Below are positions 32,822 to 43,282 of a stretch of DNA of 47,964 bases, piece by piece. Each line of letters opens with the position of its first letter. Positions within the stretch are counted from its first letter, which is position 1. Origin of the DNA: a virus; IMG/VR virus record IMGVR_UViG_3300042541_000663, positions 1 through 47,964 of that record; one strand, 5' to 3'. The notes under the pieces are model-generated. The model made no database searches. It was given only the letters and a program-made list of their open reading frames with translations, and was not told the origin of the DNA. Both the position numbers and the translations under genes were made by a program.

Positions 32822-33613
32822 ATGCACATAGGCCTAAACACAATACGCATTGACTGCAACACGCAATCCAGAGAATCCATCAGCCCAGACGTTGTAGGCC
32901 AGTACGCTGAGGATATGCAGGGAGGTAACATCTTCCCATCAGTCATAGTCTACTATGATGGCACGTTCTACTACTTGGTAGATGGGCATCACAGATTCCA
33001 CGCTGCCATGAAGATAGGCGCACCTAGTCTGGAGTGTACAGTTATTGAGGGTACGCTGCGTGAGGCTGTCCTGTTTTCAATGACGGTTAACAGTAAGCAT
33101 GGCCTACCCAGAAGCAGCGCAGATAAGCGGTATTGCATTCTGCGTATGCTGGATGATATTGAATGGGGTGAATACAGCAATAACCACATAGCCAAGCTGT
33201 GCCATGTTGGTCATGTATTAGTAGGTACAATCCGAGCAGAGCTTGGGAAGATTGCCCCAGCGGTAAGAAAGCATGTTAGAGATGGGAAGGAAGTTCTGCA
33301 GAAAGTCAGGGAGAAGAAGGAAAGGATTGTTGCCCCTGCTGAGGATACAGAGACAGAGATGGAACTTCTAAGGGCTTCAGTTGTGGACCTGATGGATGAT
33401 AACGCCGCCCTCAAGGATAAGATTTCTATTGGCTTGTCTGGAGAATCTGATGAAGAGAAGGCCAATTTAACAGAAAGAATGAAGAGTCTGGAGGCTGAGA
33501 ATGTATTGCTCAAAGTAGAAGTTAGGGCAATTACTAAATCACGCGATGCATACCAGACAGAAAATGCTGAGCTGATGAAGCAAATTGCAAGAATGAAAAA
33601 GTCCTCCCATTGA
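32822..33613 (+). CDS. ParB/Srx-fold DNA-binding protein (263 aa)
   Basis: ParB N-terminal domain with L-V-D-G-H-H-R-F-H-A-A at 52-62 (the D-G-x-H-R signature), preceded by I-F-P-S-V-I-V-Y-Y-D-G. A helical region at ~100-150 (N-N-H-I-A-K-L-C-H-V-G) could be the DNA-recognition helix-turn-helix. Residues ~165-260 are a coiled coil. ParB-type proteins bind palindromic sites and some cut DNA. A perfect palindrome lies 24 nt after the stop. Role in replication, segregation or regulation is inferred. Confidence 0.7.
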   Translation: MHIGLNTIRIDCNTQSRESISPDVVGQYAEDMQGGNIFPSVIVYYDGTFYYLVDGHHRFHAAMKIGAPSLECTVIEGTLREAVLFSMTVNSKHGLPRSSADKRYCILRMLDDIEWGEYSNNHIAKLCHVGHVLVGTIRAELGKIAPAVRKHVRDGKEVLQKVREKKERIVAPAEDTETEMELLRASVVDLMDDNAALKDKISIGLSGESDEEKANLTERMKSLEAENVLLKVEVRAITKSRDAYQTENAELMKQIARMKKSSH

Positions 33614-33636
33614 TTCTATTGGGATTTTAATACTCT

Positions 33637-33654
33637 CCTTGTCGATCGACAAGG
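33637..33654. promoter_or_regulatory. Perfect 18-bp palindrome, copy 1
   Basis: CCTTGTCGATCGACAAGG, exactly self-complementary, between the ParB-like and helicase genes. The same sequence occurs at 41233-41250; the two copies share the preceding CT as well. No T tract follows, so not a terminator. Candidate protein-binding site, or in RNA a 7-bp stem with a GATC loop. Confidence 0.75.
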
Positions 33655-33669
33655 AAGCAGGAGAACAGC

Positions 33670-35178
33670 ATGGCAGAGTTAAGTTTGTATGATTACCAGA
33701 ATGAGGCTATTGAGGAGCTAAGAAAGGGCTTTGCTAATGGTAAGAGGGCGCAGGTCTTAGTCTCCCCTACTGGGTCAGGCAAGACTGAAATGGCAATTGC
33801 TTTGATGGCTGCTACTGCTGCCAAGGGTAACAAGACTGCCATGCTGCTGGACCGCATAGTGTTATGTAATCAAACCAGTGCGCGGCTTGATAGATATGGA
33901 TTAGATCATGGCGTATATCAGGCAGATCACTGGCGGAATAGACCTTATGAAAAGATACAGGTCTGTTCTGCTCAGACTATGGAGGCGCTGGGGGTTATGC
34001 CTGATGTGACTCTGCTGATTATTGATGAGTGCCACACAATAAGAACTAAGACTGCCGCCTACATTAAGTCCAACCTCAAGTTAAAGGTAATAGGTTTGAC
34101 CGCCACGCCATTTACTAAGGGCATGGGTAAAATCTATGACAACGTGGTCAGCACTGTAACCACTAAGCAATTGGTAGCCAGAGAAGTGCTTGTCCCTCTC
34201 AGAGTATTCATAGCCAAAGAGATAGATATGGAGGGTGCTAAGAAGTCTGGGGGGGAATGGACCAACAGTGAGGCCACAGCGCGGGGCAAGAAAATCACAG
34301 GTGATGTGGTGGCTGAGTGGATAAAGGTAACTCACAAGATATTCAACAGGCCAAGGAAGACGCTGGTGTTTTGCTCCGGCACAGAGCATGGAGTGGATCT
34401 GGCGCGTAAGTTTCAAGAGCAGGGCTACAACTTTATAGCTACATCCCACAAAGATCCAGATGAGTGGCGTAAAGAAATCCTGCGGGAGTTCGCTGAACCT
34501 GACTCCAAGATACATGGCCTGATAGCAACTGACCTGTATACCAAAGGCCTAGACATTCCAGATGTAATGATAGGAGTGAGTGCCCGTCCATTTTCTAAGT
34601 CATTCAGCAGCCATGTCCAGCAGATGGGGCGCATCACTAGGGGGAATCCTGGAAGTGATAAATCTTTTTCGGTCTGGATTTGCCACTCCGGTAACTATCT
34701 CAGATTCAAGGATGACTGGGATGAGGTGTACCACAATGGCGTGGATGAGTTGGATGATGGCAAAGAGAAGACCAAGACAGAGCCTACAGAGTTTGAGAAG
34801 GAGGCAGCTAAGTGTCCCAAGTGCCATGCCCTATGGGCCAAAGGTTCTGATGCCTGTTACAACTGCGGCTTTGTTAGGGAAAAGCAGAATACAGTTTACT
34901 CAGTGAATGGCATATTAACTGAGCTACAGGCACCCGTTATTGTGAAGTGTGACTGGGATAAGCAGGAGTTCTGGTCAGCTATGGTGTGGAATATGCAGCA
35001 CAAGGGTTGGAAGCAGGGCAGGGCAGCCAAGCTATTCAAAGATAGGTTTAGTGAGTATCAGGCCCCAGACTTAAAGAATATCCCTGTTAAACCTAGTGCG
35101 CGTATAGATCTGTTTGCGAAAAACAATTTAATTGCGTGGCAGATTAAGCAGAAGTATTTGCGTGAGCATGGCAGATGA
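33670..35178 (+). CDS. SF2 DNA helicase with zinc ribbon (502 aa)
   Basis: ATP-driven helicase of the DEAD/DEAH (SSL2-like) group. Motif I P-T-G-S-G-K38-T-E, motif II D119-E-C-H, motif III T-A-T-P at 144-147 and motif VI Q-Q-M-G-R-I-T-R at ~317-324. A zinc ribbon follows with C382-P-K-C385 and C396-Y-N-C399, then a C-terminal domain of ~100 residues. AGGAG is 7 nt before the ATG. Its stop overlaps the primase start (ATGA). Likely unwinds DNA at the phage replication fork or origin. Confidence 0.85.
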   Translation: MAELSLYDYQNEAIEELRKGFANGKRAQVLVSPTGSGKTEMAIALMAATAAKGNKTAMLLDRIVLCNQTSARLDRYGLDHGVYQADHWRNRPYEKIQVCSAQTMEALGVMPDVTLLIIDECHTIRTKTAAYIKSNLKLKVIGLTATPFTKGMGKIYDNVVSTVTTKQLVAREVLVPLRVFIAKEIDMEGAKKSGGEWTNSEATARGKKITGDVVAEWIKVTHKIFNRPRKTLVFCSGTEHGVDLARKFQEQGYNFIATSHKDPDEWRKEILREFAEPDSKIHGLIATDLYTKGLDIPDVMIGVSARPFSKSFSSHVQQMGRITRGNPGSDKSFSVWICHSGNYLRFKDDWDEVYHNGVDELDDGKEKTKTEPTEFEKEAAKCPKCHALWAKGSDACYNCGFVREKQNTVYSVNGILTELQAPVIVKCDWDKQEFWSAMVWNMQHKGWKQGRAAKLFKDRFSEYQAPDLKNIPVKPSARIDLFAKNNLIAWQIKQKYLREHGR

Positions 35179-36005
35179 CCTTTGTAGACTTTTGCAGATT
35201 GCACGGCGTGATAATAAGTCACACCCCCAAGATAGGTAACTGGGCGCGGTATCCAACAGAAGACCACCCTCATAAAAGGAATGGGGCTGTGAAGTTCATG
35301 CTTACACATGGCTTTGTGCAGAACCACGCCACTGAGGATACCGTATCTGTCTGGCAACCTGATGTAGCCCCCACTATCAGGGCTGGTGATGTCATAGCCA
35401 TAAAGAATGCAGGAGCTGATATAGCCAAGAAGCAGGGACAGGCGGCTATCAAGGCGGCAGTCCTTTTAAAACAGGCCAGGTTAACCACTCATCCATACTT
35501 ACGCAGGAAGGGCTTTCCTGATGACGAGGGGAGCGTGATAGAGACAGATGAGGGGTTGGTATTACTTATACCAATGCGCGTCTCTGGGGCGCTTGTGGGG
35601 CTTCAGCAGGTCAGTCCTACAGGTGAGAAGCGTTTCCTATATGGACAGAGGTCAAATGGTGCGGAATTTGTATTTGATAACAGGGGAGTTAATATTCTGT
35701 GTGAGGGCTACGCTACCGCCCTATCTCTCAGGCTTGCCCTTAAAACTATGAAGCGTAGGTACACTTTGCACGTTTGCTTCAGTGCGTCAAACCTAGTGAA
35801 CATTGCTAGCCAGCTGGAGGAGGGATTTGTTATTGCTGACAATGATCTCAGCGGGGTGGGGGAGGCCAGTGCCAAGAAGACAGGCTGGCCTTATTGGATG
35901 AGTGATTCAGTTGGTCAGGACTTTAATGACTTCCACCTAGCGCGTGGACTATTTGCCGCCACTCAAGGCCTGACCACGTTGTTTATGCCGCCACGCCCCT
36001 CTTAA
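35175..36005 (+). CDS. Toprim DNA primase (276 aa)
   Basis: N-terminal part has N-G-A-V-K-F-M-L-T-H-G-F-V-Q and V-S-V-W-Q-P-D. The Toprim catalytic domain shows C-E177-G-Y-A-T-A-L-S and I-A-D222-N-D224-L-S-G, the acidic metal-binding residues, then Q-D-F-N-D-F-H. Short compared with DnaG; similar to phage primases that pair with a separate helicase. Translationally coupled to the helicase. Its 3' end overlaps the convergent small-protein operon by 23 nt. Confidence 0.8.
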   Translation: MTFVDFCRLHGVIISHTPKIGNWARYPTEDHPHKRNGAVKFMLTHGFVQNHATEDTVSVWQPDVAPTIRAGDVIAIKNAGADIAKKQGQAAIKAAVLLKQARLTTHPYLRRKGFPDDEGSVIETDEGLVLLIPMRVSGALVGLQQVSPTGEKRFLYGQRSNGAEFVFDNRGVNILCEGYATALSLRLALKTMKRRYTLHVCFSASNLVNIASQLEEGFVIADNDLSGVGEASAKKTGWPYWMSDSVGQDFNDFHLARGLFAATQGLTTLFMPPRPS

Positions 36006-36243
36006 TTTGCTTGAGCATCTTCACCAGCTTCTTATTAATCACCACAGCATCACAGTAGCAGTCCGGCATAGAGCAAGCGCATCCCTTTAATGGGTATTCA
36101 ATGCCAGTAATTAAGTCTGTGACTGTGGCCTTCCACTTCATTCCACGCTTCATTTTTAGTACATCAGCATCAGAGATCAGCAGCTTGATCCTCTCATCAG
36201 AGTTATCAGAAGTCTTAGGTGTGCAGATATTAGTACCCTTCAT
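35983..36243 (-). CDS. Small protein with a Cys-rich segment (86 aa)
   Basis: ATG at 36243 is preferred (GGAG 7 nt upstream); an ATG 33 nt earlier has no Shine-Dalgarno. Contains L-L-I-S-D-A-D-V-L-K-M-K-R-G-M-K-W and C-A-C-S-M-P-D-C-Y-C-D, four close cysteines that could bind a metal. Last gene of the leftward small-protein operon, convergent with the primase gene. Function unknown. Confidence 0.6.
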   Translation of the reverse strand: MKGTNICTPKTSDNSDERIKLLISDADVLKMKRGMKWKATVTDLITGIEYPLKGCACSMPDCYCDAVVINKKLVKMLKQIKRGVAA

Positions 36244-36448
36244 TTTTCTTCTCCAGTAGTTTGCGTTCTGTTTCAATAAAATGCGGAGTCTCCTCCTCCA
36301 CCAGAACTATGATGGTTTCAATAGCATCTCTGTCATCATAGTCAAAGGCAGCGTGGAAGGCTTTGTTAAGGGCATTCATTTCTGAATAGCCCTCAACCCT
36401 CACCACAAATTCCACCCTTTTCTGTAATTTGATCCTGTAATGTGGCAT
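36230..36448 (-). CDS. Small alpha/beta protein (72 aa)
   Basis: MPHYRIKLQKRVEFVVRVEG opens with two beta strands, then a helix (M-N-A-L-N-K-A-F-H-A-A-F) and an acidic end. The layout F-x-V-x-V then A-x-x-x-A resembles other members of this operon (37147, 37353). ATGA-type overlap with the upstream gene. Unknown function. Confidence 0.6.
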   Translation of the reverse strand: MPHYRIKLQKRVEFVVRVEGYSEMNALNKAFHAAFDYDDRDAIETIIVLVEEETPHFIETERKLLEKKNEGY

Positions 36449-36816
36449 CAGCTTTCCAGTTTATGCACGGTTATATTGGTCAAACTGTACCTGTATCTGC
36501 GCTTCTCACCAGTAGTTCTGATCTCGCCAGCGGCCTTCAATCTGGTCAACGCCTTAGAAACCAGGTTTTCAGTTTGGTAATCCACGCCACTGGGCAGTAT
36601 TTTTTGCTTGATTAAAAAACTGGTAGAGGATGGGTGTTTCTTCAAGAATGTCAGAATTTGAGAAGAGATGCTAACCCCTTTCGGGATCATATCCTTCTTA
36701 TACAGTTCAGACAGATGCATACTGTGAGTCGAGGCCTCCATCAGATCCGCCGCTATCCCGTCCAGAGTTCCTGTGCCTGTCAGGTCAGCGTACTGCGCCC
36801 CTACAGGCCACCTCAT
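36448..36816 (-). CDS. Winged-helix-like regulator (122 aa)
   Basis: The start at 36816 is set by GGAGGGAGCA and an ATGA overlap with the upstream stop. The C-terminal half fits a winged helix: I-S-S-Q-I-L-T-F-L-K-K-H-P-S-S-T, S-F-L-I-K-Q-K-I-L, then N-L-V-S-K-A-L-T-R-L-K-A-A-G-E-I and a wing R-T-T-G-E-K-R-R-Y-R-Y. Possibly autoregulates the operon. Confidence 0.6.
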   Translation of the reverse strand: MRWPVGAQYADLTGTGTLDGIAADLMEASTHSMHLSELYKKDMIPKGVSISSQILTFLKKHPSSTSFLIKQKILPSGVDYQTENLVSKALTRLKAAGEIRTTGEKRRYRYSLTNITVHKLES

Positions 36817-37073
36817 TGCTCCCTCCATTGGTCTACATACGCACCTACCACATCCCAGGTGATGCCATACTCGCAGTTATGCCCACGTTGCATCTGATTC
36901 AATATATCCTTAGCATCATCATCACTCATAGGGGTGCAGTCACCCGCAATGTCTTGAATGTCTGATATGTGCCACCAAACGGACATCCAATCATTAGATG
37001 CCACTCTGTCAAGCTCATACTGCGCCTTCTCATTTGATATACAGTCCGATACCAATAAAGTTACTTCTCTCAT
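36813..37073 (-). CDS. Conserved small phage/bacterial protein (86 aa)
   Basis: Contains V-W-W-H-I-S-D-I-Q and M-S-D-D-D-A-K-D-I-L-N-Q-M-Q-R-G-H-N-C-E-Y-G-I-T-W-D. This pattern (helix, then G-I-T/N-W-D) recurs in small proteins of many phages and bacteria, without known activity. GAGGG before the ATG. Preceded by a membrane micro-ORF. Confidence 0.6.
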   Translation of the reverse strand: MREVTLLVSDCISNEKAQYELDRVASNDWMSVWWHISDIQDIAGDCTPMSDDDAKDILNQMQRGHNCEYGITWDVVGAYVDQWREQ

Positions 37074-37144
37074 GATTTATCCCTCAAAAAAATCCACGCT
37101 ATAAAAACTACTATCAAGGTATACGCTACTTCGTTTTCACACAT
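37070..37144 (-). CDS. Membrane micropeptide (24 aa)
   Basis: M-C-E-N-E-V-A-Y then a span T-L-I-V-V-F-I-A-W-I-F-L, ending R-D-K-S. Starts 2 nt after the upstream gene's stop and overlaps the downstream start (ATGA), so translation is coupled on both sides. No Shine-Dalgarno of its own. Confidence 0.4.
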   Translation of the reverse strand: MCENEVAYTLIVVFIAWIFLRDKS

Positions 37145-37146
37145 AA

Positions 37147-37356
37147 TTAATAACTTGACAGGGTTGCAGCTTCATATTCATCTTCTAAATCAAAAGAAGG
37201 TATTGGCACACTTTCCCCATCTTCAATCACTTGAATTGTTATACCTTCTTCCATTTCTGTGTATTCAGTGGATCGCTGCTTAATCCAAGCCTCCTCCTCA
37301 TTTTCTGCTTCAATCTCAACATACTGAATGACACGCTGCTCAAAATAGAATCTCAT
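37147..37356 (-). CDS. Small acidic alpha/beta protein, paralogue pair member (69 aa)
   Basis: MRFYFEQRVIQYVEIEAENEEEAW: beta-alpha, then a strand I-T-I-Q-V-I-E-D-G. The gene directly upstream has S-V-Q-V-I-E-D-A in the same place, so the two are tandem paralogues. ATGA overlap. Strongly acidic; could mimic DNA or bind a host protein, which is speculation. Confidence 0.55.
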   Translation of the reverse strand: MRFYFEQRVIQYVEIEAENEEEAWIKQRSTEYTEMEEGITIQVIEDGESVPIPSFDLEDEYEAATLSSY

Positions 37357-37547
37357 GTCGCACCCCCAATAGTAAAATATGGCATGGATATGGGTGCATC
37401 CTCAATAACTTGCACACTGATGCCGCTGTCATGCACTACATCCGCCTGTTTATCCCGCCTGAGAAATTCTGCATCTGCTTGCTCTTGTGTTTCCGCTTTT
37501 ATAACGGTTTCAAAGGTCATGGTGCAGGTAAAAACGTATGAGTTCAT
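37353..37547 (-). CDS. Small alpha/beta protein, paralogue pair member (64 aa)
   Basis: MNSYVFTCTMTFETVIKAETQEQADAEFL-type fold (strand, strand, helix), then I-S-V-Q-V-I-E-D-A. Paralogue of the next gene in the operon. AAGGAGGAATC before the ATG, which overlaps the preceding stop; that Shine-Dalgarno encodes K-E-E-S at the end of the upstream protein. Confidence 0.55.
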   Translation of the reverse strand: MNSYVFTCTMTFETVIKAETQEQADAEFLRRDKQADVVHDSGISVQVIEDAPISMPYFTIGGAT

Positions 37548-37735
37548 GATTCCTCCTTGAGTGTGCTGCCCTCGCTATCCGTATCAGAAGGCGAGGAGAT
37601 ATGAGTCACCTCTCCACATGGATAAGCATTTAAAGCTTGCTCCTCCGCGTGATCCTCATCTTCTGCCCAACATTGAAAGAACATCTGAAACTTGTCGCCC
37701 TTATCTTCGCGCAAGCTTACTAGGTATGATTTCAT
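37544..37735 (-). CDS. Small acidic protein (63 aa)
   Basis: MKSYLVSLREDKGDKFQMFF, then A-E-D-E-D-H-A-E-E-Q-A-L-N-A-Y-P, a pattern common in small proteins of unknown function in phages and plasmids. The C terminus L-K-E-E-S is the translated ribosome site of the next gene. GGAGGCAGC before its own ATG. Confidence 0.55.
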   Translation of the reverse strand: MKSYLVSLREDKGDKFQMFFQCWAEDEDHAEEQALNAYPCGEVTHISSPSDTDSEGSTLKEES

Positions 37736-37772
37736 GCTGCCTCCAGTTGTCCGTTATCGTCTTGGTTTTCAT
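37701..37772 (-). CDS. Tiny coupled ORF (23 aa), doubtful
   Basis: ATG overlaps the upstream stop (ATGA), with GGAGG 4 nt before it. Sequence begins MKTKTITDNWRQHE and ends K-L-A-R-R, basic. It carries the next gene's Shine-Dalgarno and runs into that gene in another frame, so it may only keep ribosomes moving between genes. Confidence 0.3.
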   Translation of the reverse strand: MKTKTITDNWRQHEIIPSKLARR

Positions 37773-38128
37773 GATTCCTCCATCCAGGTTGCTGGTAGTT
37801 CCACCCCTTCATTCTCTGCCTGTTCGCGTATATATCTCTCATCATGCCCGTTGTAATCGTCTGGCGATGATTTCAGCAAGTCTGATAAGAATCCCTCGTC
37901 TCCCTGATCTGGGGTATTGTGAAATATTTCAAGACTGCCAGTGTCATGGTTTATCATTGCACACTGATAATCCGCATTTACTAGAAAAACAAAGCCGCTG
38001 CCCTTATTAAATGCGGGCTTCACTTCATCATCGGAAAAGTTATCTGGTAGCGGTTTGGACAATATTTCGCGCAGCATCTCTCTCTCTCTTGAACCAAATT
38101 CACCTATATTCTCAGTGTAATAACTCAT
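37769..38128 (-). CDS. Conserved small-operon protein (119 aa)
   Basis: ATG at 38128 (MSYYTENIGEFG) has AAGGA 8 nt upstream; an in-frame ATG 18 nt earlier lacks one. Motifs: G-S-R-E-R-E-M-L-R-E-I-L, F-V-F-L-V-N-A-D-Y-Q, L-E-I-F-H-N-T-P and G-F-L-S-D-L. I know near-identical motifs from uncharacterised phage and bacterial proteins. No enzymatic motif. Confidence 0.65.
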   Translation of the reverse strand: MSYYTENIGEFGSREREMLREILSKPLPDNFSDDEVKPAFNKGSGFVFLVNADYQCAMINHDTGSLEIFHNTPDQGDEGFLSDLLKSSPDDYNGHDERYIREQAENEGVELPATWMEES

Positions 38129-38150
38129 GGTTATATCCTTTTGCACGTTG

Positions 38151-38163
38151 CCGGATCTGCCGG
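38151..38163 (-). other. Short leader hairpin before the 38128 gene
   Basis: CCGG, ATCTG loop, CCGG, about 23 nt upstream of the start. The fourth in a run of leader hairpins in this operon. Only 4 bp long, so weak. Confidence 0.3.
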
Positions 38164-38175
38164 ATCAGTTTAATG

Positions 38176-38370
38176 TTAATTGTTTTGTTCCTTGTATCTT
38201 CTGCATACCTCATTCACTCTATCGCTACGAATTACGCCATAAAGGAAGTTTGTCTTTGCTGCAAATTTACGCGCCTTTGAGTAACTATCGAATCGCTCCC
38301 CATAATTAGCTGGTTGTAGGTATACATCTCTGCCGCCAGAACATACTTGCAGGACTGTGTAATCGCTCAT
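38176..38370 (-). CDS. Small basic protein (64 aa)
   Basis: ATG at 38370 (MSDYTVLQVCSGGRDVYL) with GAGGA 7 nt upstream. Contains F-D-S-Y-S-K-A-R-K-F-A-A-K-T-N-F-L and R-V-N-E-V-C-R-R. Unknown family; net basic, so nucleic-acid binding is possible. A leader hairpin lies ~33 nt upstream. Confidence 0.55.
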   Translation of the reverse strand: MSDYTVLQVCSGGRDVYLQPANYGERFDSYSKARKFAAKTNFLYGVIRSDRVNEVCRRYKEQNN

Positions 38371-38402
38371 TAGTATTTCCTCATAGTTAGGGTAGTATGT
38401 TG

Positions 38403-38418
38403 CCGAAATTGGTTTCGG
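38403..38418 (-). other. Leader hairpin before the 38370 gene
   Basis: Perfect 6-bp stem CCGAAA/TTTCGG with a 4-nt loop, in the gap 33 nt upstream of the start codon. No T-run on either side. Confidence 0.45.
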
Positions 38419-38479
38419 GAACATCCATAATTTAATAATTAATACAGTTACTTGATAATAGATTCTTAGCTAATCATTG

Positions 38480-38653
38480 CTAAAATGTGGCCTTATGCTC
38501 TACTTGTTTACTGTCCTTTTCGCACAAGAATACTGATATTTCATAAGAATTTTTAGCCTTGAATATTTTAGCGGCTGCGTCTTGTGCATCAAAGGTGCGT
38601 AAAGCATAGACTTCACAAGTCTTGCCACGATAAAAGCATTTATAACCGAACAT
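38480..38653 (-). CDS. Small conserved phage protein (57 aa)
   Basis: ATG at 38653 (MFGYKCFYRGKTCEVYA) with AAGGGG upstream. Y-K-C-F-Y-R-G-K-T-C-E-V then A-Q-D-A-A-A-K-I-F-K-A-K-N-S-Y-E-I-S-V-F-L-C: a compact beta-alpha-beta fold found in many phages. The pattern is familiar; function is not known. Confidence 0.6.
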   Translation of the reverse strand: MFGYKCFYRGKTCEVYALRTFDAQDAAAKIFKAKNSYEISVFLCEKDSKQVEHKATF

Positions 38654-38687
38654 AGTAGTTCCCCTTATAGTTAGGATTGTTTGTAGA

Positions 38688-38707
38688 GTGTAGATTTTAA
38701 TCCACAC
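38688..38707 (-). other. Leader hairpin before the 38653 gene
   Basis: GTGTAGATTTTAATCCACAC, an inverted repeat with one A:C mismatch, 35 nt upstream of the start codon. Could also be an operator. Confidence 0.4.
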
Positions 38708-38731
38708 TTCACTAATCAATTAATAGAGTGA

Positions 38732-38989
38732 CTACGCTCCGCTATTGAATGAAGCATAAGAGCGTATGGGAGAATCATAATTGGAATGGGATTCCTTAAT
38801 TTCCACTTGTTTCCCTAACTCATTCATTTTGGCTATGAATCGGGACAGGTCACAGTCCTCTTCCAGGTATACGTTATCTCCCTTTTGATATGAATAATGA
38901 GAGATTTTATCTAGGATTTCCAGGTCTATTAATTCTTGCCGATTTACTTGAAGCCAGCCATGTCCTGGGTCAGCGTGGAATAAATACAT
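38732..38989 (-). CDS. Conserved small phage protein (85 aa)
   Basis: ATG at 38989 (MYLFHADPGHGWLQV), GAGGA 8 nt upstream; an ATG 93 nt earlier would overlap the neighbour without a Shine-Dalgarno. Motifs D-P-G-H-G-W-L-Q-V, I-S-H-Y-S-Y-Q-K-G and V-Y-L-E-E-D-C-D-L recur in phage and bacterial proteins of unknown function. Confidence 0.65.
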   Translation of the reverse strand: MYLFHADPGHGWLQVNRQELIDLEILDKISHYSYQKGDNVYLEEDCDLSRFIAKMNELGKQVEIKESHSNYDSPIRSYASFNSGA

Positions 38990-39025
38990 GATATTTTCCT
39001 CTTGGTAGTTTATAAAGTATTTCCC

Positions 39026-39043
39026 TATAGGCCTAAACCTATA
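39026..39043 (-). other. Leader hairpin before the 38989 gene
   Basis: TATAGG/CCTATA, 6-bp stem with a 6-nt loop, 37 nt upstream of the start codon and overlapping nothing else. Confidence 0.4.
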
Positions 39044-39053
39044 AGGCAAAACT

Positions 39054-39236
39054 CTATGAATGGGTATATCCGTCCTTCTCAATACCTAGCCACATATCGC
39101 ACCAATGAAGCATTAAATAACCATAACCATGCTGGACGGTACGTCTAAACTGTAGATAGCTCATATTCTGGTTATCCTGGTTATATTTACGTTTAATGGC
39201 TTGTTGCTGTTCTTTAGTTATCTTTTTATTAAGCAT
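39054..39236 (-). CDS. Conserved small phage protein (60 aa)
   Basis: ATG at 39236 (MLNKKITKEQQQAIKRKY) with AAGGGG upstream. Helical N-terminal half, then Y-L-Q-F-R-R-T-V and L-H-W-C-D-M-W-L-G-I-E-K-D-G-Y-T-H-S, a C terminus I recognise from small proteins of many phages. Role unknown. Confidence 0.6.
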   Translation of the reverse strand: MLNKKITKEQQQAIKRKYNQDNQNMSYLQFRRTVQHGYGYLMLHWCDMWLGIEKDGYTHS

Positions 39237-39414
39237 GGAATTCCCCTTGATATGCAAAGTCTTCCAGGCTTGTTATAAGTCCATCAAAGTCCTCTGAACT
39301 TCCCAGTATCCCCGCCAGGGTAAAAACAGTGTCCAGGTCAACGCCCATATCATCGGCAAGCGTTTCCAGGTAGTCGCGTCTTGATGTATATCCTTCGTCC
39401 GTGTATATGCTCAT
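39229..39414 (-). CDS. Small acidic protein (61 aa)
   Basis: MSIYTDEGYTSRRDYLETLAD, then G-V-D-L-D-T-V-F-T-L-A-G-I-L-G-S-S-E-D-F-D-G-L: helical and acidic, a common phage small-protein type. Overlaps its downstream neighbour by 8 nt and its upstream neighbour by 4. Function unknown. Confidence 0.6.
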   Translation of the reverse strand: MSIYTDEGYTSRRDYLETLADDMGVDLDTVFTLAGILGSSEDFDGLITSLEDFAYQGEFHA

Positions 39415-39719
39415 GCTGACACCCCATTATTAAGTTTTTCTTGTGCCAATTGCTTCCAGTCCAGGGGGGTTAGTTCGTCTTGCTTATGCTTAGCAATTTC
39501 TTGCCAGTTAACCTCATCCAGGAAAGCCATTGCATAGTCCCAGGCAATACCTCCCAGGTCTGGACAGCTATTATCAACGGCAAGGATAGCGGTTTCTTTT
39601 AGATAATCTGCCAATTCGTGCGCCTCATAGGGCGTGTTAACGTCTATTCTAAATCCGTCAATTAGTTCTAAATTGACGCGCCATGTAGCGTAATTCGTCC
39701 ATCCGTTATATTTGTTCAT
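39411..39719 (-). CDS. Conserved NYATW-type phage protein (102 aa)
   Basis: N-terminal M-N-K-Y-N-G-W-T-N-Y-A-T-W-R-V-N-L-E, then I-A-W-D-Y-A-M-A-F-L-D-E-V-N-W-Q-E-I-A. This family is widespread in phages and plasmids and has no assigned function. CGGAG before the ATG, which overlaps the micro-ORF upstream (ATGA). Confidence 0.65.
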   Translation of the reverse strand: MNKYNGWTNYATWRVNLELIDGFRIDVNTPYEAHELADYLKETAILAVDNSCPDLGGIAWDYAMAFLDEVNWQEIAKHKQDELTPLDWKQLAQEKLNNGVSA

Positions 39720-39787
39720 GGTTTACTCCGTATTGATAAGATTAAAAGAACAAAAGAAAGCAGTAATGGGAAAAGGATATAAAACAT
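39716..39787 (-). CDS. Membrane micropeptide (23 aa)
   Basis: M-F-Y-I-L-F-P-L-L-L-S-F-V-L-L-I-L-S then I-R-S-K-P: almost entirely one membrane span with a positive tail. TAATG overlap with the upstream micro-ORF and ATGA overlap with the next gene. Such tight coupling argues that it is translated. Confidence 0.45.
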   Translation of the reverse strand: MFYILFPLLLSFVLLILSIRSKP

Positions 39788-39879
39788 TATTTACCCCGCG
39801 TAATAAAGAACATAAAAGACATAAAACAGACTTGAAATAATGCGATACATAAAAAGTAATCAAAGATATCGTAGGTCAT
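39787..39879 (-). CDS. Membrane micropeptide (30 aa)
   Basis: M-T-Y-D-I-F-D-Y then a Phe/Met/Leu-rich span (F-L-C-I-A-L-F-Q-V-C-F-M-S-F-M-F-F-I), ending T-R-G-K. ATGA overlap with the gene before and one-base overlap with the micropeptide after. Positive-inside rule suggests the C terminus is cytoplasmic. Confidence 0.45.
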   Translation of the reverse strand: MTYDIFDYFLCIALFQVCFMSFMFFITRGK

Positions 39880-40082
39880 GATATGAATCCATCAGTGCCA
39901 TCAGCAGATACGCGCACGTATAATTCAGGATCATAAAAATCATAGACTACGTCACCAGACTCTGACAGGAATGCAAGATCGCCTAAAAACTGATAAAAGA
40001 CACAGATTAATGGCTCTTGATCATATCGCTCAAATACTGGTGCGTACCATTCACCAATGATTAATTCGTTATAAGTTTTCAT
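39876..40082 (-). CDS. First gene of the small-protein operon (68 aa)
   Basis: MKTYNELIIGEWYAPVFERYD, then L-I-C-V-F-Y-Q-F-L-G-D and V-V-Y-D-F-Y-D-P-E-L-Y: beta-rich and acidic. AAAGGA before the start. Directly behind a strong promoter and operator, so among the most expressed of this operon. Family unknown. Confidence 0.55.
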   Translation of the reverse strand: MKTYNELIIGEWYAPVFERYDQEPLICVFYQFLGDLAFLSESGDVVYDFYDPELYVRVSADGTDGFIS

Positions 40083-40118
40083 GATGGTTTATCCTTTATA
40101 AGTAGTGGTAGAGATGTA

Positions 40119-40146
40119 ATTCTATCCCATCTATTGAGAGTGTCAA
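40119..40146 (-). promoter_or_regulatory. Leftward promoter of the small-protein operon
   Basis: On the minus strand TTGACA (40146-40141), 16-nt spacer, TAGAAT (40124-40119, 5/6). One of the best sigma-70-type promoters in the window, 37 nt before the first gene. Its -35 overlaps an inverted repeat. Confidence 0.7.
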
Positions 40147-40149
40147 TAG
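40131..40149. promoter_or_regulatory. Candidate operator overlapping the -35 box
   Basis: CTATTGA-gagtg-TCAATAG, perfect 7-bp half-sites 12 bp apart, covering the -35 of the leftward promoter. GGTTAACC (40149-40156) and a third half-site CAATAG follow. Position suits a repressor; the winged-helix, XRE-like or AlpA-like proteins are possible binders. Confidence 0.55.
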
Positions 40150-40156
40150 GTTAACC

Positions 40157-40405
40157 AATAGATTGTTAAATATATATTGATATTCTAGGGGGTCAGTCAA
40201 TGCTATCCTATGCAAAAGTATTAAAACGCAGCCAGCGCGGTCCTGGTGAGAATGGGGGCAGAATGGCTCTGGGCTTGGGTTCCAGGGTATGTGAGTGGTT
40301 ACTATCATGGAATGGCGCATGGATAAAGGATAGTTGTTCCCTATTTGTTCCCCATTGTGTTATATTCGCGGCAATGAGTTCAATAGCGTAGCGGGACAGT
40401 CTAAA
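40157..40405. other. Control region between the small-protein operon and the terminase genes
   Basis: About 250 bp, no credible gene. Contains the AT-rich stretch TTAAATATATATTGATATTC, and TTGTTCCC twice near 40335-40350, followed by TTATATT. A rightward promoter for the packaging genes must lie here or further upstream, but I cannot fix one with confidence. Confidence 0.35.
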
Positions 40406-41197
40406 ATGACAAAGGTATCTAGAGCATCCATAAAGGATAAACTAAAAGACACAAAGTCTATTAGTTCCGCACTAATGATCAAGCGTGGATCTCTCACCCA
40501 CAAACAATTGAAGTTTGCACAAGGTATCGCCATTGATGGGTTAACTGGTGCGGAAGCTTATAGGCAAGCATATGACAGTAAGGCCAAACCTCATACAGTA
40601 GCCAATAACGCCAGTGCGATGATTACAAAACATAAGGGTATTCAGGCGATCATAACTGCAATGGAAGCGGCAAAAGAGGCTGAGAGATATAATACTGCCG
40701 AATCCCTGCGCTCATTGGTGATCAATAGCCTAGTACAAACACTGATAGACCCTAGCACTAAAGCCAGTGATAGAACCAATTGCGCTAAGGTACTGGGACA
40801 GGTAACTGAGGTCGCAGCGTTTACCACAAGGTCAGAGACAACAGTTATAAAGGATAGTGGGGAACTCAGACTACAGATACTTGATGAGCTTAGATCAATG
40901 ATGCTTAGCTCTAACCAATCAATAACTGATATAGATACTGATTCTTTAATGGCTGAACTCATTGTGGGAAAAGATGATGAACTCTCAGCGGGTGAATTGG
41001 CAGAATGTGGGAAATTAGTACCAGAAACAGCATTAAAAGAGGGTGGGAGTGGGGATGAACCCCTTTTTGATGTAGATGAGGTGGCTGGTTCTCTACATAT
41101 TATTCCTGACAAACAATCATTTCCCCCAGAGAATTCCTTAGATTCACCTCTTCCTGACTCAGATCGCATACAGAAAAGGGCCCCCTATGTTAAATAA
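40406..41197 (+). CDS. terS: Terminase small subunit (263 aa)
   Basis: The ATG at 40406 gives a sensible N terminus (MTKVSRASIKDKL); the 24 codons before it look like untranslated leader. Residues ~27-75 have L-T-H-K-Q-L-K-F-A-Q-G-I-A-I-D-G, G-A-E-A-Y-R-Q-A-Y and A-S-A-M-I-T-K-H-K-G-I-Q, the DNA-recognition helix-turn-helix of small terminases. The middle is an oligomerising helical region, and the C-terminal ~80 residues are acidic and disordered. Recognises the packaging site. Confidence 0.75.
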   Translation: MTKVSRASIKDKLKDTKSISSALMIKRGSLTHKQLKFAQGIAIDGLTGAEAYRQAYDSKAKPHTVANNASAMITKHKGIQAIITAMEAAKEAERYNTAESLRSLVINSLVQTLIDPSTKASDRTNCAKVLGQVTEVAAFTTRSETTVIKDSGELRLQILDELRSMMLSSNQSITDIDTDSLMAELIVGKDDELSAGELAECGKLVPETALKEGGSGDEPLFDVDEVAGSLHIIPDKQSFPPENSLDSPLPDSDRIQKRAPYVK

Positions 41198-41289
41198 TTC
41201 ACATGGGTGGGGGGGTATATATTTTTTTTGCTCCTTGTCGATCGACAAGGTAGGGCATAATTTCTCAATGAAATCAATGGTACGTTAAA
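41198..41289. other. Intergenic region between terminase genes with homopolymer runs
   Basis: Seven G (41209-41215), then TATATA and eight T (41222-41229), then the second 18-bp palindrome. Unusual base composition. Packaging sites often lie in or near terS, so this may be part of pac or cos, but no cleavage motif is recognisable. Confidence 0.35.
41233..41250. promoter_or_regulatory. Perfect 18-bp palindrome, copy 2
   Basis: CCTTGTCGATCGACAAGG, identical to 33637-33654. It stands 40 nt before the next gene, upstream of the large terminase. The shared exact sequence in two unrelated gene gaps argues for selection. Confidence 0.75.
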
Positions 41290-41520
41290 TTGAAAAGATA
41301 CATAAAGCCTACTACTGAGCAGCGCAATGAGGTTAATGAGATGGTGCTTGATATCCAGAAGTTGTTGGATGGTAGAGAGTGGGGACCTTCATTGGCGGCA
41401 TTAACAATCTGTATTGGAGAGATGGGGGAGATGATTGACAGGGAGGACCAGTCTGACTTTGTATCTTATGTGTGTGGTGTCCTTAGTGGGATTATGCATG
41501 TTAAGGGTGAGCTGCATTGA
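41290..41520 (+). CDS. Small protein between terminase genes (76 aa)
   Basis: Opens with TTG and no clear Shine-Dalgarno, so the start is uncertain (an ATG at 41341 is possible). Helical: V-N-E-M-V-L-D-I-Q-K-L-L-D-G-R-E-W, then I-G-E-M-G-E-M-I-D-R-E-D-Q and C-G-V-L-S-G-I-M-H. No family recognised. Could be a packaging accessory by position. Confidence 0.45.
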   Translation: MKRYIKPTTEQRNEVNEMVLDIQKLLDGREWGPSLAALTICIGEMGEMIDREDQSDFVSYVCGVLSGIMHVKGELH

Positions 41521-41585
41521 TTATTAACAGAGAGATGATTGCTAGTAGGCGGGACTTAGATCGTGCTGTATGTATGGAGGTTACA

Positions 41586-41810
41586 ATGACACCTGCCCAG
41601 AGGGAGGTCTTTTTGTTTATAGATGAGTACTGGCTACAGTATGGGTTTGGTCCGTCTATTAGGGATATATGTGAGTTTAGGAATAAGCCTGGGCTTGGTA
41701 ACACTGCTAAGATAATAGACCGTCTAGTAAGGCTGGGGGTTTTAAAAAGGGTTAAGGGAATGGGTAGGAGTGTTAGACCTGTGTATATTAACTTTAGGAA
41801 GCTGGACTGA
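41586..41810 (+). CDS. LexA-type winged-helix DNA-binding protein (74 aa)
   Basis: ATG at 41586 has a strong GGAGG 6 nt upstream, better than the TTG at 41517. Matches the LexA N-terminal domain: M-T-P-A-Q-R-E-V-F-L-F-I-D-E-Y, Y-G-F-G-P-S-I-R-D-I, then A-K-I-I-D-R-L-V-R-L-G-V-L-K-R and R-S-V-R-P. No protease half, so it is not a self-cleaving repressor. May regulate the packaging operon. Overlaps the large terminase start by one base. Confidence 0.65.
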   Translation: MTPAQREVFLFIDEYWLQYGFGPSIRDICEFRNKPGLGNTAKIIDRLVRLGVLKRVKGMGRSVRPVYINFRKLD

Positions 41811-43282
41811 TGGGTATTGCGGAAATGATAGCGGATCTTCCTCTAATGGAGCAGGAGAAGCTATTTGAGAACGTGGCCCAATATAAGGGGGCTTTGGTAA
41901 GAGAGAAAGCCCAGCAAGACTTCCTATCCTTTGTTAAGGAGATGTGGCCTGGGTTTATACATGGCAGACACCACGCCCTCATGGCTAAGAAGTTTCAAGA
42001 GATTGTAGATGGGAAATTAAAAAGACTGATTATTAATATGCCACCTAGGCATACAAAATCGGAATTTGCCTCTAATATGTTACCTGCTTGGTTCTTGGGT
42101 AAGTTCCCAGAGAAGAAAGTTATCCAATGTTCTAATACGGCAGAACTGGCTGTTGGCTTTGGACGTAAGGTTAGAAACTTGGTAGGGTCTGAACAGTACT
42201 CTAAGATCTTCCCAGATGTAACGCTAAAGTCTGACTCTAAGGCTGCAGGACGCTGGGCTACAAATCACGGGGGAGACTATTTTGCTATTGGGGTTGGCGG
42301 GACGGTAACAGGGAAAGGAGCTGACTTATTAATAATAGATGACCCACACTCTGAGCAGGAAGCGAAACTAGCCCAAGGGGACCCTAGTGTATTTGACTCT
42401 GTATATGAGTGGTATACGTCTGGCCCTAGGCAGCGTCTTCAACCTGGAGGGGTTATTATTGTAGTCATGACACGCTGGTCAGATAAAGATCTAACTGGCA
42501 AGCTCTTAAAGGATGATACTGAATGGGATATTGTCCAGTTACCTGCAATTCTGCCTAGTGGTAATGCTTTATGGCCTGAGTTCTGGGAGCTAAGAGAGCT
42601 GTTAGATCTAAAGGAAGAGCTCCCTGTATATAAGTGGAACGCTCAATATCAACAGACTCCTACTGGAGAAGAAGGCGCTTTAGTTAAAAGAGACTGGTGG
42701 CAGAGATGGGAGGCTGATAGGCCCCCTAAGTGTGAGTTTATAATACAGTCATGGGATACTGCGTTTACTAAAAGTCAGAGGGCGGATTATTCAGCCTGTA
42801 CTACTTGGGGGATTTTTCACTTAAATGAAAACCCAGAAGACGTTAATATAATCATGCTAGATGCGTGGAAGGATAAGCTGGAATTCCCTGATCTAAAGGA
42901 CACGGCTAAGAGATTCTATGATGAATGGCAGCCTGATGCCTGTATTATTGAAGCTAAAGCTGCTGGAGCTCCACTGATATTTGAATTAAGACGTATGGGC
43001 GTGATGGTATCTGACTACACTCCTGTAAGAGGTAATGATAAGTTTGTCCGTATTAACTCAGTAACTGATTTATTCAGGTCTGGGCGGGTCTGGGCTCCTG
43101 AGACTAAGTGGGCAGAAGAGGTAATAGAAGAAATGGCTAGATTTCCTAATGCAGAACATGATGACTTGGTGGATTCTACGGTCCAAGCTCTAATAAGATT
43201 TAGGCAGGGTGGGTTTTTAAGACTCGACTCTGATGAGGAAGATGATAATATTGGTTTTAGGCGTAAAAAGACTTACTACTAA
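41810..43282 (+). CDS. terL: Terminase large subunit (490 aa)
   Basis: ATPase: Walker A-like P-P-R-H-T-K-S-E at 78-85 and Walker B L-L-I-I-D177-D178-P-H. Nuclease: S-W-D316-T-A, E381-A-K-A-A-G and H450-D-D-L-V-D-S, the acidic metal-binding residues of the RNase H-like fold. Normal length. Pumps DNA into the procapsid and cuts the concatemer, docking on the portal encoded next. TGATG overlap with the previous gene. Confidence 0.9.
   Translation: MGIAEMIADLPLMEQEKLFENVAQYKGALVREKAQQDFLSFVKEMWPGFIHGRHHALMAKKFQEIVDGKLKRLIINMPPRHTKSEFASNMLPAWFLGKFPEKKVIQCSNTAELAVGFGRKVRNLVGSEQYSKIFPDVTLKSDSKAAGRWATNHGGDYFAIGVGGTVTGKGADLLIIDDPHSEQEAKLAQGDPSVFDSVYEWYTSGPRQRLQPGGVIIVVMTRWSDKDLTGKLLKDDTEWDIVQLPAILPSGNALWPEFWELRELLDLKEELPVYKWNAQYQQTPTGEEGALVKRDWWQRWEADRPPKCEFIIQSWDTAFTKSQRADYSACTTWGIFHLNENPEDVNIIMLDAWKDKLEFPDLKDTAKRFYDEWQPDACIIEAKAAGAPLIFELRRMGVMVSDYTPVRGNDKFVRINSVTDLFRSGRVWAPETKWAEEVIEEMARFPNAEHDDLVDSTVQALIRFRQGGFLRLDSDEEDDNIGFRRKKTYY

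Follow-up and report, generated by a model that had tools for sequence, protein, structure and literature searches.

The window, as the whole analyzed stretch of 47,964 nt from IMG/VR virus record IMGVR_UViG_3300042541_000663 is called here, carries two copies of an 18-bp perfect palindrome together with a gene encoding a ParB-like protein, which is a candidate reader of both copies. Judging from sequence comparison, we put the probability that the palindromes are specific sites for this phage's own, putatively orphan ParB-family protein (32822-33613) at about 0.78. The features of the locus are listed below, where HTH stands for helix-turn-helix, AF2 for AlphaFold2 and ORF for open reading frame.

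32822-33613, plus strand: putative orphan ParB-family protein, 263 aa (phrog_1033, E = 3.5e-14), the proposed palindrome reader
33212-33241, plus strand: predicted recognition helix of the HTH, residues 131-140 (HVLVGTIRAE), the second HTH helix in the AF2 model
33607-33655, plus strand: composite element at site 1, conserved flank CCATTGATTnnATTG plus palindrome (inverted repeat I1)
33637-33654, no strand assigned: site 1, 18-bp perfect palindrome CCTTGTCGATCGACAAGG, between the ParB-like and helicase genes
33670-35178, plus strand: helicase gene, directly downstream of site 1 (phrog_16, E = 1.4e-72)
35175-36005, plus strand: primase-like gene (phrog_2249, E = 6.5e-28)
40334-41197, plus strand: terminase small subunit (terS), upstream of site 2 (phrog_51, E = 2.9e-10)
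41232-41280, minus strand: composite element at site 2, inverted relative to site 1 (inverted repeat, shared flank motif)
41233-41250, no strand assigned: site 2, palindrome CCTTGTCGATCGACAAGG identical to site 1, in the gap downstream of terS
41290-41520, plus strand: 76-aa ORF, conserved downstream of site 2
41517-41810, plus strand: LexA-type winged-helix DNA-binding protein, 97 aa (PF01726, E = 3.9e-6, 27 bits against a cut-off of 23.7)
41810-43282, plus strand: terminase large subunit (terL; phrog_38, E = 8.5e-112)

The palindrome pair and its flanks

The exact pair described in the initial annotation was recovered, the 18-mer being found exactly twice in the window, and the view that a second copy would hardly arise by chance agrees with 0 such cases in 100 dinucleotide shuffles. 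No third site resembling the 18-mer was found at three or fewer mismatches anywhere in the window. Site 1, which extends to 20 bp (33636-33655) when the outer T/A pair is counted, starts 23 nt after the stop codon of the ParB-like gene (33613), as had been noted, and precedes the helicase start at 33670. The placement proposed for the two copies was right in that site 1 lies before the helicase/primase genes and site 2 after terS (stop at 41197), but terL is not adjacent to site 2, from which it (41810) is separated by two small ORFs (41290-41520 and 41517-41810).

The flanks of the two copies had been described as different. When the second copy is inverted, however, the 49-nt arms 33607-33655 and 41232-41280 show 78% complementarity, and that description has to be abandoned. 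The motif CATTGATTnnATTGRG is common to both flanks and is mismatch-free only at these two places; in its longer form, CCATTGATTnnATTGRG, it occupies 33607-33623 and 41264-41280, inverted and adjoining both palindromes. Across site classes, this flank is better conserved than the palindrome, and it occurs in classes I and II.

As well, the stretch GGTGGGGGGGTATATATTTTTTTT lies directly 3' of terS (41206-41231), and its G-run and TATATA recur there in close aligned relatives; it could be a packaging or promoter signal. Between both sites, a 126-aa ORF (36448-36828, minus strand) has weak PaaX-like winged-helix similarity (E = 0.004, below cut-off), which makes it a possible second regulator. 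A megablast search of the window against named phages gave no match, and since related records reach 58-67 kb, the window record is probably an incomplete genome.

The ParB-like protein and its recognition helix

Across the clade, the ParB-like gene immediately precedes the helicase gene, and its products share 27-87% identity over 42 sequences. The 263-aa protein consists, in order, of a ParB/Srx-like N-terminal domain, an HTH and a C-terminal coiled coil. In the AF2 model (mean predicted local distance difference test score, pLDDT, of 82.9; about 92-96 over residues 1-80), the HTH helices span residues 120-127 and 131-140 and are followed by the coiled coil, while the best Protein Data Bank matches of this model in Foldseek were Myxococcus xanthus ParB, Noc, Caulobacter ParB bound to parS, and KorB (8qa9, 8qa8). 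A profile search likewise gave a weak match to ParB/Spo0J. A Box II-like GxxRxxA motif is present, with G55, H57, R58, and A61 invariant in the 42 sequences. Together with the predicted ParB/Srx N-terminal fold and the central HTH, the predicted palindrome reader, it is among the features by which the ParB superfamily is recognized. In bacterial genomes, mainly relatives of the N-domain and HTH were found, many of them in Burkholderiales and Planctomycetes bins.

Sites for the covariation analysis were defined by T at -7, G at -6, and A at -3 together with pairing alone, blind to bases -5 and -1, and 26 ParB representatives with less than 85% identity were used for the contingency tests. Phenylalanine or tyrosine at residue 133 was associated with a central CG (counts of 14 and 1 against 1 and 10, p = 2e-5), and H131 with G at -5 (20 and 2 against 0 and 4, p = 0.001). 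On a tree built without the helix, the states of residue 133 and of the centre each changed about 8 times, while residue 131 changed 4 times and base -5 changed 6 times. Among 254 alignment columns, residue 133 had the highest rank for the centre (z 10.3, against 4.0 for the next column), as residue 131 had for base -5 (z 5.6, against 5.1). The 131 rule was recovered in loci fetched later (7 and 0 against 1 and 8, p = 0.0014). The window site fits both rules, combining H131 with G at -5 and L133 with a non-CG (GATC) centre. Moreover, the window protein and its closest ParB relative, L012 (86% identical), differ at residues 131, 132, 135, and 136, namely at four of the six residues 131-136 (hypergeometric p = 0.004), and their palindromes differ too. 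Helix/site covariation across many phages and the ParB/Noc/KorB-like predicted fold both support the ParB-like protein as the reader of the palindrome, as had been suggested.

In addition, ParB-like proteins with the helix SPQLV share the palindrome AGCGTTAA(tt or at)TTAACGCT (L360:19468, L365:2246, L374:3421, and L377:10439), which is a candidate for a further helix/site pair.

On direct reading, the 263-aa sequence lacks the ParA-binding motif (L/F/I)G(K/R)G(L/F/I), and a ParA-type ATPase (PF13614) was detected in 0 of 12 records, some of which may be incomplete, against 14 of 14 controls. Because neither ParA nor its binding motif was found, the window protein is, as far as its sequence tells, an orphan ParB. 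No Pfam tyrosine integrase was found in 12 records either, while all control genomes were positive. These results bear on a rival reading in which the sites would be genuine parS centromeres, belonging to a partition system that serves an extrachromosomal or carrier state. The ParB fold, the multiple copies and the presence of palindromes near and within parB are in keeping with it, but the missing PF13614 and integrase, together with the lack of LG[RK]GL in the protein sequence, make it unlikely, although the window record may be a fragment. The centromere-like role that had been raised for this locus thus finds no support in the ParABS sense. With no ParA found, gene control or local DNA organisation is a likelier role than classical partition; a part in segregation, or in compaction, during a carrier state is possible.

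Palindromes at equivalent and dispersed places in relatives

The exact 18-mer occurs in IMG/VR contigs in two contexts. One contig (L005) carries both copies 7,596 nt apart, as in the window, while L002, L003, L007, and L008 carry the terminase copy. A third exact copy is present in the structural-gene region of L001, L004, and L006. L001 overlaps the left end of the window at 77-89% identity, so that in these relatives the third copy would lie about 2.2 kb beyond that end. The window lineage has two sites plus one in related contigs.

Upstream of terL, the position of the palindrome is near-constant in relatives (-576 to -581; -577 for window site 2), where the alleles are CCTTGTCGATCGACAAGG (L015-L017), CCTTGCTTAGCAGCAAGG (L013), ATCTTGCTGCTAAGCAAGAT (L018), and AGTGATCAGGAATTCCTGATCACT (L021-L024). 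Upstream of the helicase, the alleles CTTGCTGCTAAGCAAG (L181, contig of L018) and TAGTGAAAAGCAATTGCTTTTCACTA (L182, contig of L022) were found, the former occurring at both places of one relative's contig. The pattern AGTGA-N14-TCACT is also present at both places in relatives, with 13 matches at N14 against 0-2 at neighbouring spacings. Usually, the two places of one genome agree in their allele or, at fixed spacing, in their outer half-sites, and L020 (site 2) and L184 (site 1), on different contigs, share the same inner sequence in inverted positions. In dozens of related phages, the ParB recognition helix changes along with the spelling of the palindrome. The initial annotation expected its reading to fail if relatives kept both genes without the palindrome; the exact sequence does change among relatives, but a palindrome usually persists in a different spelling. 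A scan for the exact CTTGCTGCTAAGCAAG pattern returned 88 stretches, mostly probable chance matches to a 16-mer, from which a 37-kb relative and the L013 contig were checked, and a search for near-palindrome pairs in several shorter loci gave nothing above shuffles.

The same alleles bear on the alternative that the LexA-like winged-helix protein (41517-41810) uses the palindrome as its operator. LexA proteins bind palindromes, and the LexA-like gene, with PF01726 above cut-off, adjoins site 2 throughout the clade. However, the window and L013 have exactly the same DNA-binding region in this protein although the inner parts of their palindromes differ (CCTTGTCGATCGACAAGG versus CCTTGCTTAGCAGCAAGG), and the region is near-identical in L021-L024, whose palindrome is a different 24-mer. 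No covariation with the site comparable to that of the ParB helix was seen for this protein, and such an operator is quite improbable.

In complete-looking relatives, the site class is dispersed, with up to 11 copies per genome of about 65 kb. G006 carries 11 copies of TGGMAACGTTGCCA and G001 has 11 matches to the TGGnAAnnTTnCCA pattern, many of these lying in coding sequence, while G002, G003, G005, and G007 have 3-5 copies; some sites fall in structural genes. Intergenic places are favoured, as 14 of 50 sites touch non-coding DNA against 2.7 expected, and the majority lie within genes. In L189, L197, L211, and L217, a site is located within the parB gene, in the stretch that encodes the linker following the HTH, where the palindromes specify SGKVST, SGNVAT, and SGNIST (L189:4645-4692, L197:1644, and L217:9647); L189 has two such copies about 30 nt apart. 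Since the density of perfect-arm sites differs only slightly between parB genes (0.11 per kb) and elsewhere (0.065 per kb), presence rather than enrichment in parB is claimed. A general GTGG-N8-CCAC motif was rejected and refined because its count was no higher than at other spacings.

Other palindromes were observed in the clade as well. Perfect palindromes of 26 bp with constant outer AAACT...AGTTT and variable middle occur at L041:5003 and 9555, L344:956 and 14284, L347:3074 and 16945, L362:17444, and L380:11337, frequently as a pair in one contig whose members have an AT and a CG centre, respectively. In L043, TGATAACGTTATCA is present three times upstream of terL (535, 600, and 665), with a spacing of exactly 65 nt.

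A conserved H-type RNA pseudoknot, GCCCAAGCCAGCGGGC..GUGCUGGCAG, is located directly upstream of the helicase Shine-Dalgarno in relatives (L187:4800-4848) and at the equivalent place in about 50 loci (e.g., L189, L191, L236, and L249). In this element, 97.9% of cells are paired and 9 of 10 pairs show two-sided changes, a level that none of 500 shuffles reached; no Rfam family matched the pseudoknot loci, and the element seems to have been lost in the window lineage. Site 1 adjoins the place of this real RNA structure, and some palindrome arms change in a compensatory way, both of which would suit an element acting as RNA, such as a transcript hairpin for termination, stabilisation, processing or translation control. 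The 7-bp stem with a GATC loop that had been drawn for it could form in principle, but comparison with relatives speaks rather for a DNA site. Neither copy is followed by the T-run of an intrinsic terminator, the symmetry of most alleles extends through the centre although the loop of a hairpin would not require it, and palindrome and pseudoknot are separate elements in L182 and L193. The covariation with a protein DNA-binding helix and the dispersal of the sites, including inside genes, likewise argue for a DNA site rather than an RNA hairpin, because a location in genes is nothing unusual for parS/operator-type DNA sites but would be surprising for an element that acts as RNA alone; an RNA role is very unlikely. 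Finally, packaging, recombination or invertible-segment sites, which the 49-nt inverted arms around a 7.6-kb segment including terS and the location beside the terminase might suggest, are highly improbable, as gene order is the same in L005 and the L012 contig with no inverted form seen, relatives have many further copies away from these two places, a Pfam tyrosine recombinase was not detected in the window, and the ParB helix covariation would be left unexplained.

Proposed role of the sites and comparison with known systems

Several points weigh against assigning the palindromes to the ParB-like protein. The Pfam ParBc_2 score was below cut-off. The window site has T instead of G at -6, which puts it outside the motif class from which the rules were derived, and for this reason it was not used in their derivation. 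The 131 rule is broken by L194 and L196, where H131 goes with T at -5, and by L012, which combines N131 with G at -5, and the 133 rule was a trend only in loci fetched later (5 and 5 against 0 and 6, p = 0.09), where some sites are probably chance hits. Kinship was controlled in part, namely by clustering, the tree and comparison with other columns. Many ParB relatives in small contigs have no recognisable site, and MW202545, a distant named relative, has no such palindromes in 30.7 kb.

Taken as sites of the ParB-like protein, the palindromes are, by analogy, probably regulatory and similar to parS or KorB operators, and a KorB-like regulatory role appears most likely. The protein probably binds as a dimer, with one half-site per recognition helix, and would load at these few palindromic sites; like ParB, Noc, KorB, and VirB, it may then form a closed clamp that depends on nucleotide. 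It might control nearby genes, that is, its own operon with the helicase/primase genes and the terminase module, in the way KorB acts from dispersed RK2 operators. The link between replication and packaging proposed for the two sites is only suggested by their position. A broader scheme, which we offer tentatively and consider rather doubtful, is that a ParA-less clade of tailed phages might use an orphan ParB sliding-clamp regulator at a few dispersed palindromes, with its specificity rewritten often and all sites of a genome changing together, which would tie replication and packaging into one switch and separate co-infecting phages.

Orphan ParB-fold proteins occur commonly in phages, and for one clade of them candidate DNA sites can now be named. 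The putative residue-to-base code of this clade is open to quick experimental test, and the many natural protein/site pairs with different specificities provide material for the evolution of ParB-type recognition; orthogonal pairs might also be of use in DNA labelling.

Some distant phage relatives are annotated as StrR-like, a likeness to the StrR-like pathway regulators discussed in PMC10886168 that comes from deposited annotation only. Orphan ParB-CTPase-fold proteins have been surveyed in phages (Kaljevic et al. 2025, PMC12704722) in a work that, in its available portion, is concerned with nucleotides and domain fusions. The phage orphans described in that portion resemble the window protein in having no ParA-binding motif; unlike here, where candidate DNA sites were identified, it gives none for them.

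Similar to chromosomal ParB-parS and Noc-NBS, the phage system putatively has palindromes read by an HTH whose specificity is changed by a few residues of the recognition region (PMC7383237). In Caulobacter ParB, the specificity residue 173 was studied by Jalal et al. (PMC7383237), and H131 falls on R173 by helix register when read by eye (V134 = V176, S130 = S172). However, the phage protein has neither ParA nor a ParA-binding motif, its half-site is different, its identity to these proteins is about 15%, and it has a C-terminal coiled coil.

KorB is a ParB-family sliding clamp that, together with KorA, acts on plasmid promoters even when the operator lies as far as 1.5 kb from them (PMC11790492). 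Like KorB and the OB operators of plasmid RK2, the phage system comprises a ParB-family protein and dispersed palindromic candidate operators (11 sites each in G001 and G006), the predicted fold of its protein matches 8qa9 and 8qa8, and a second HTH protein, LexA-like, is encoded nearby, as KorA is for KorB. It differs from KorB in being a phage system with other site sequences, which change very rapidly.

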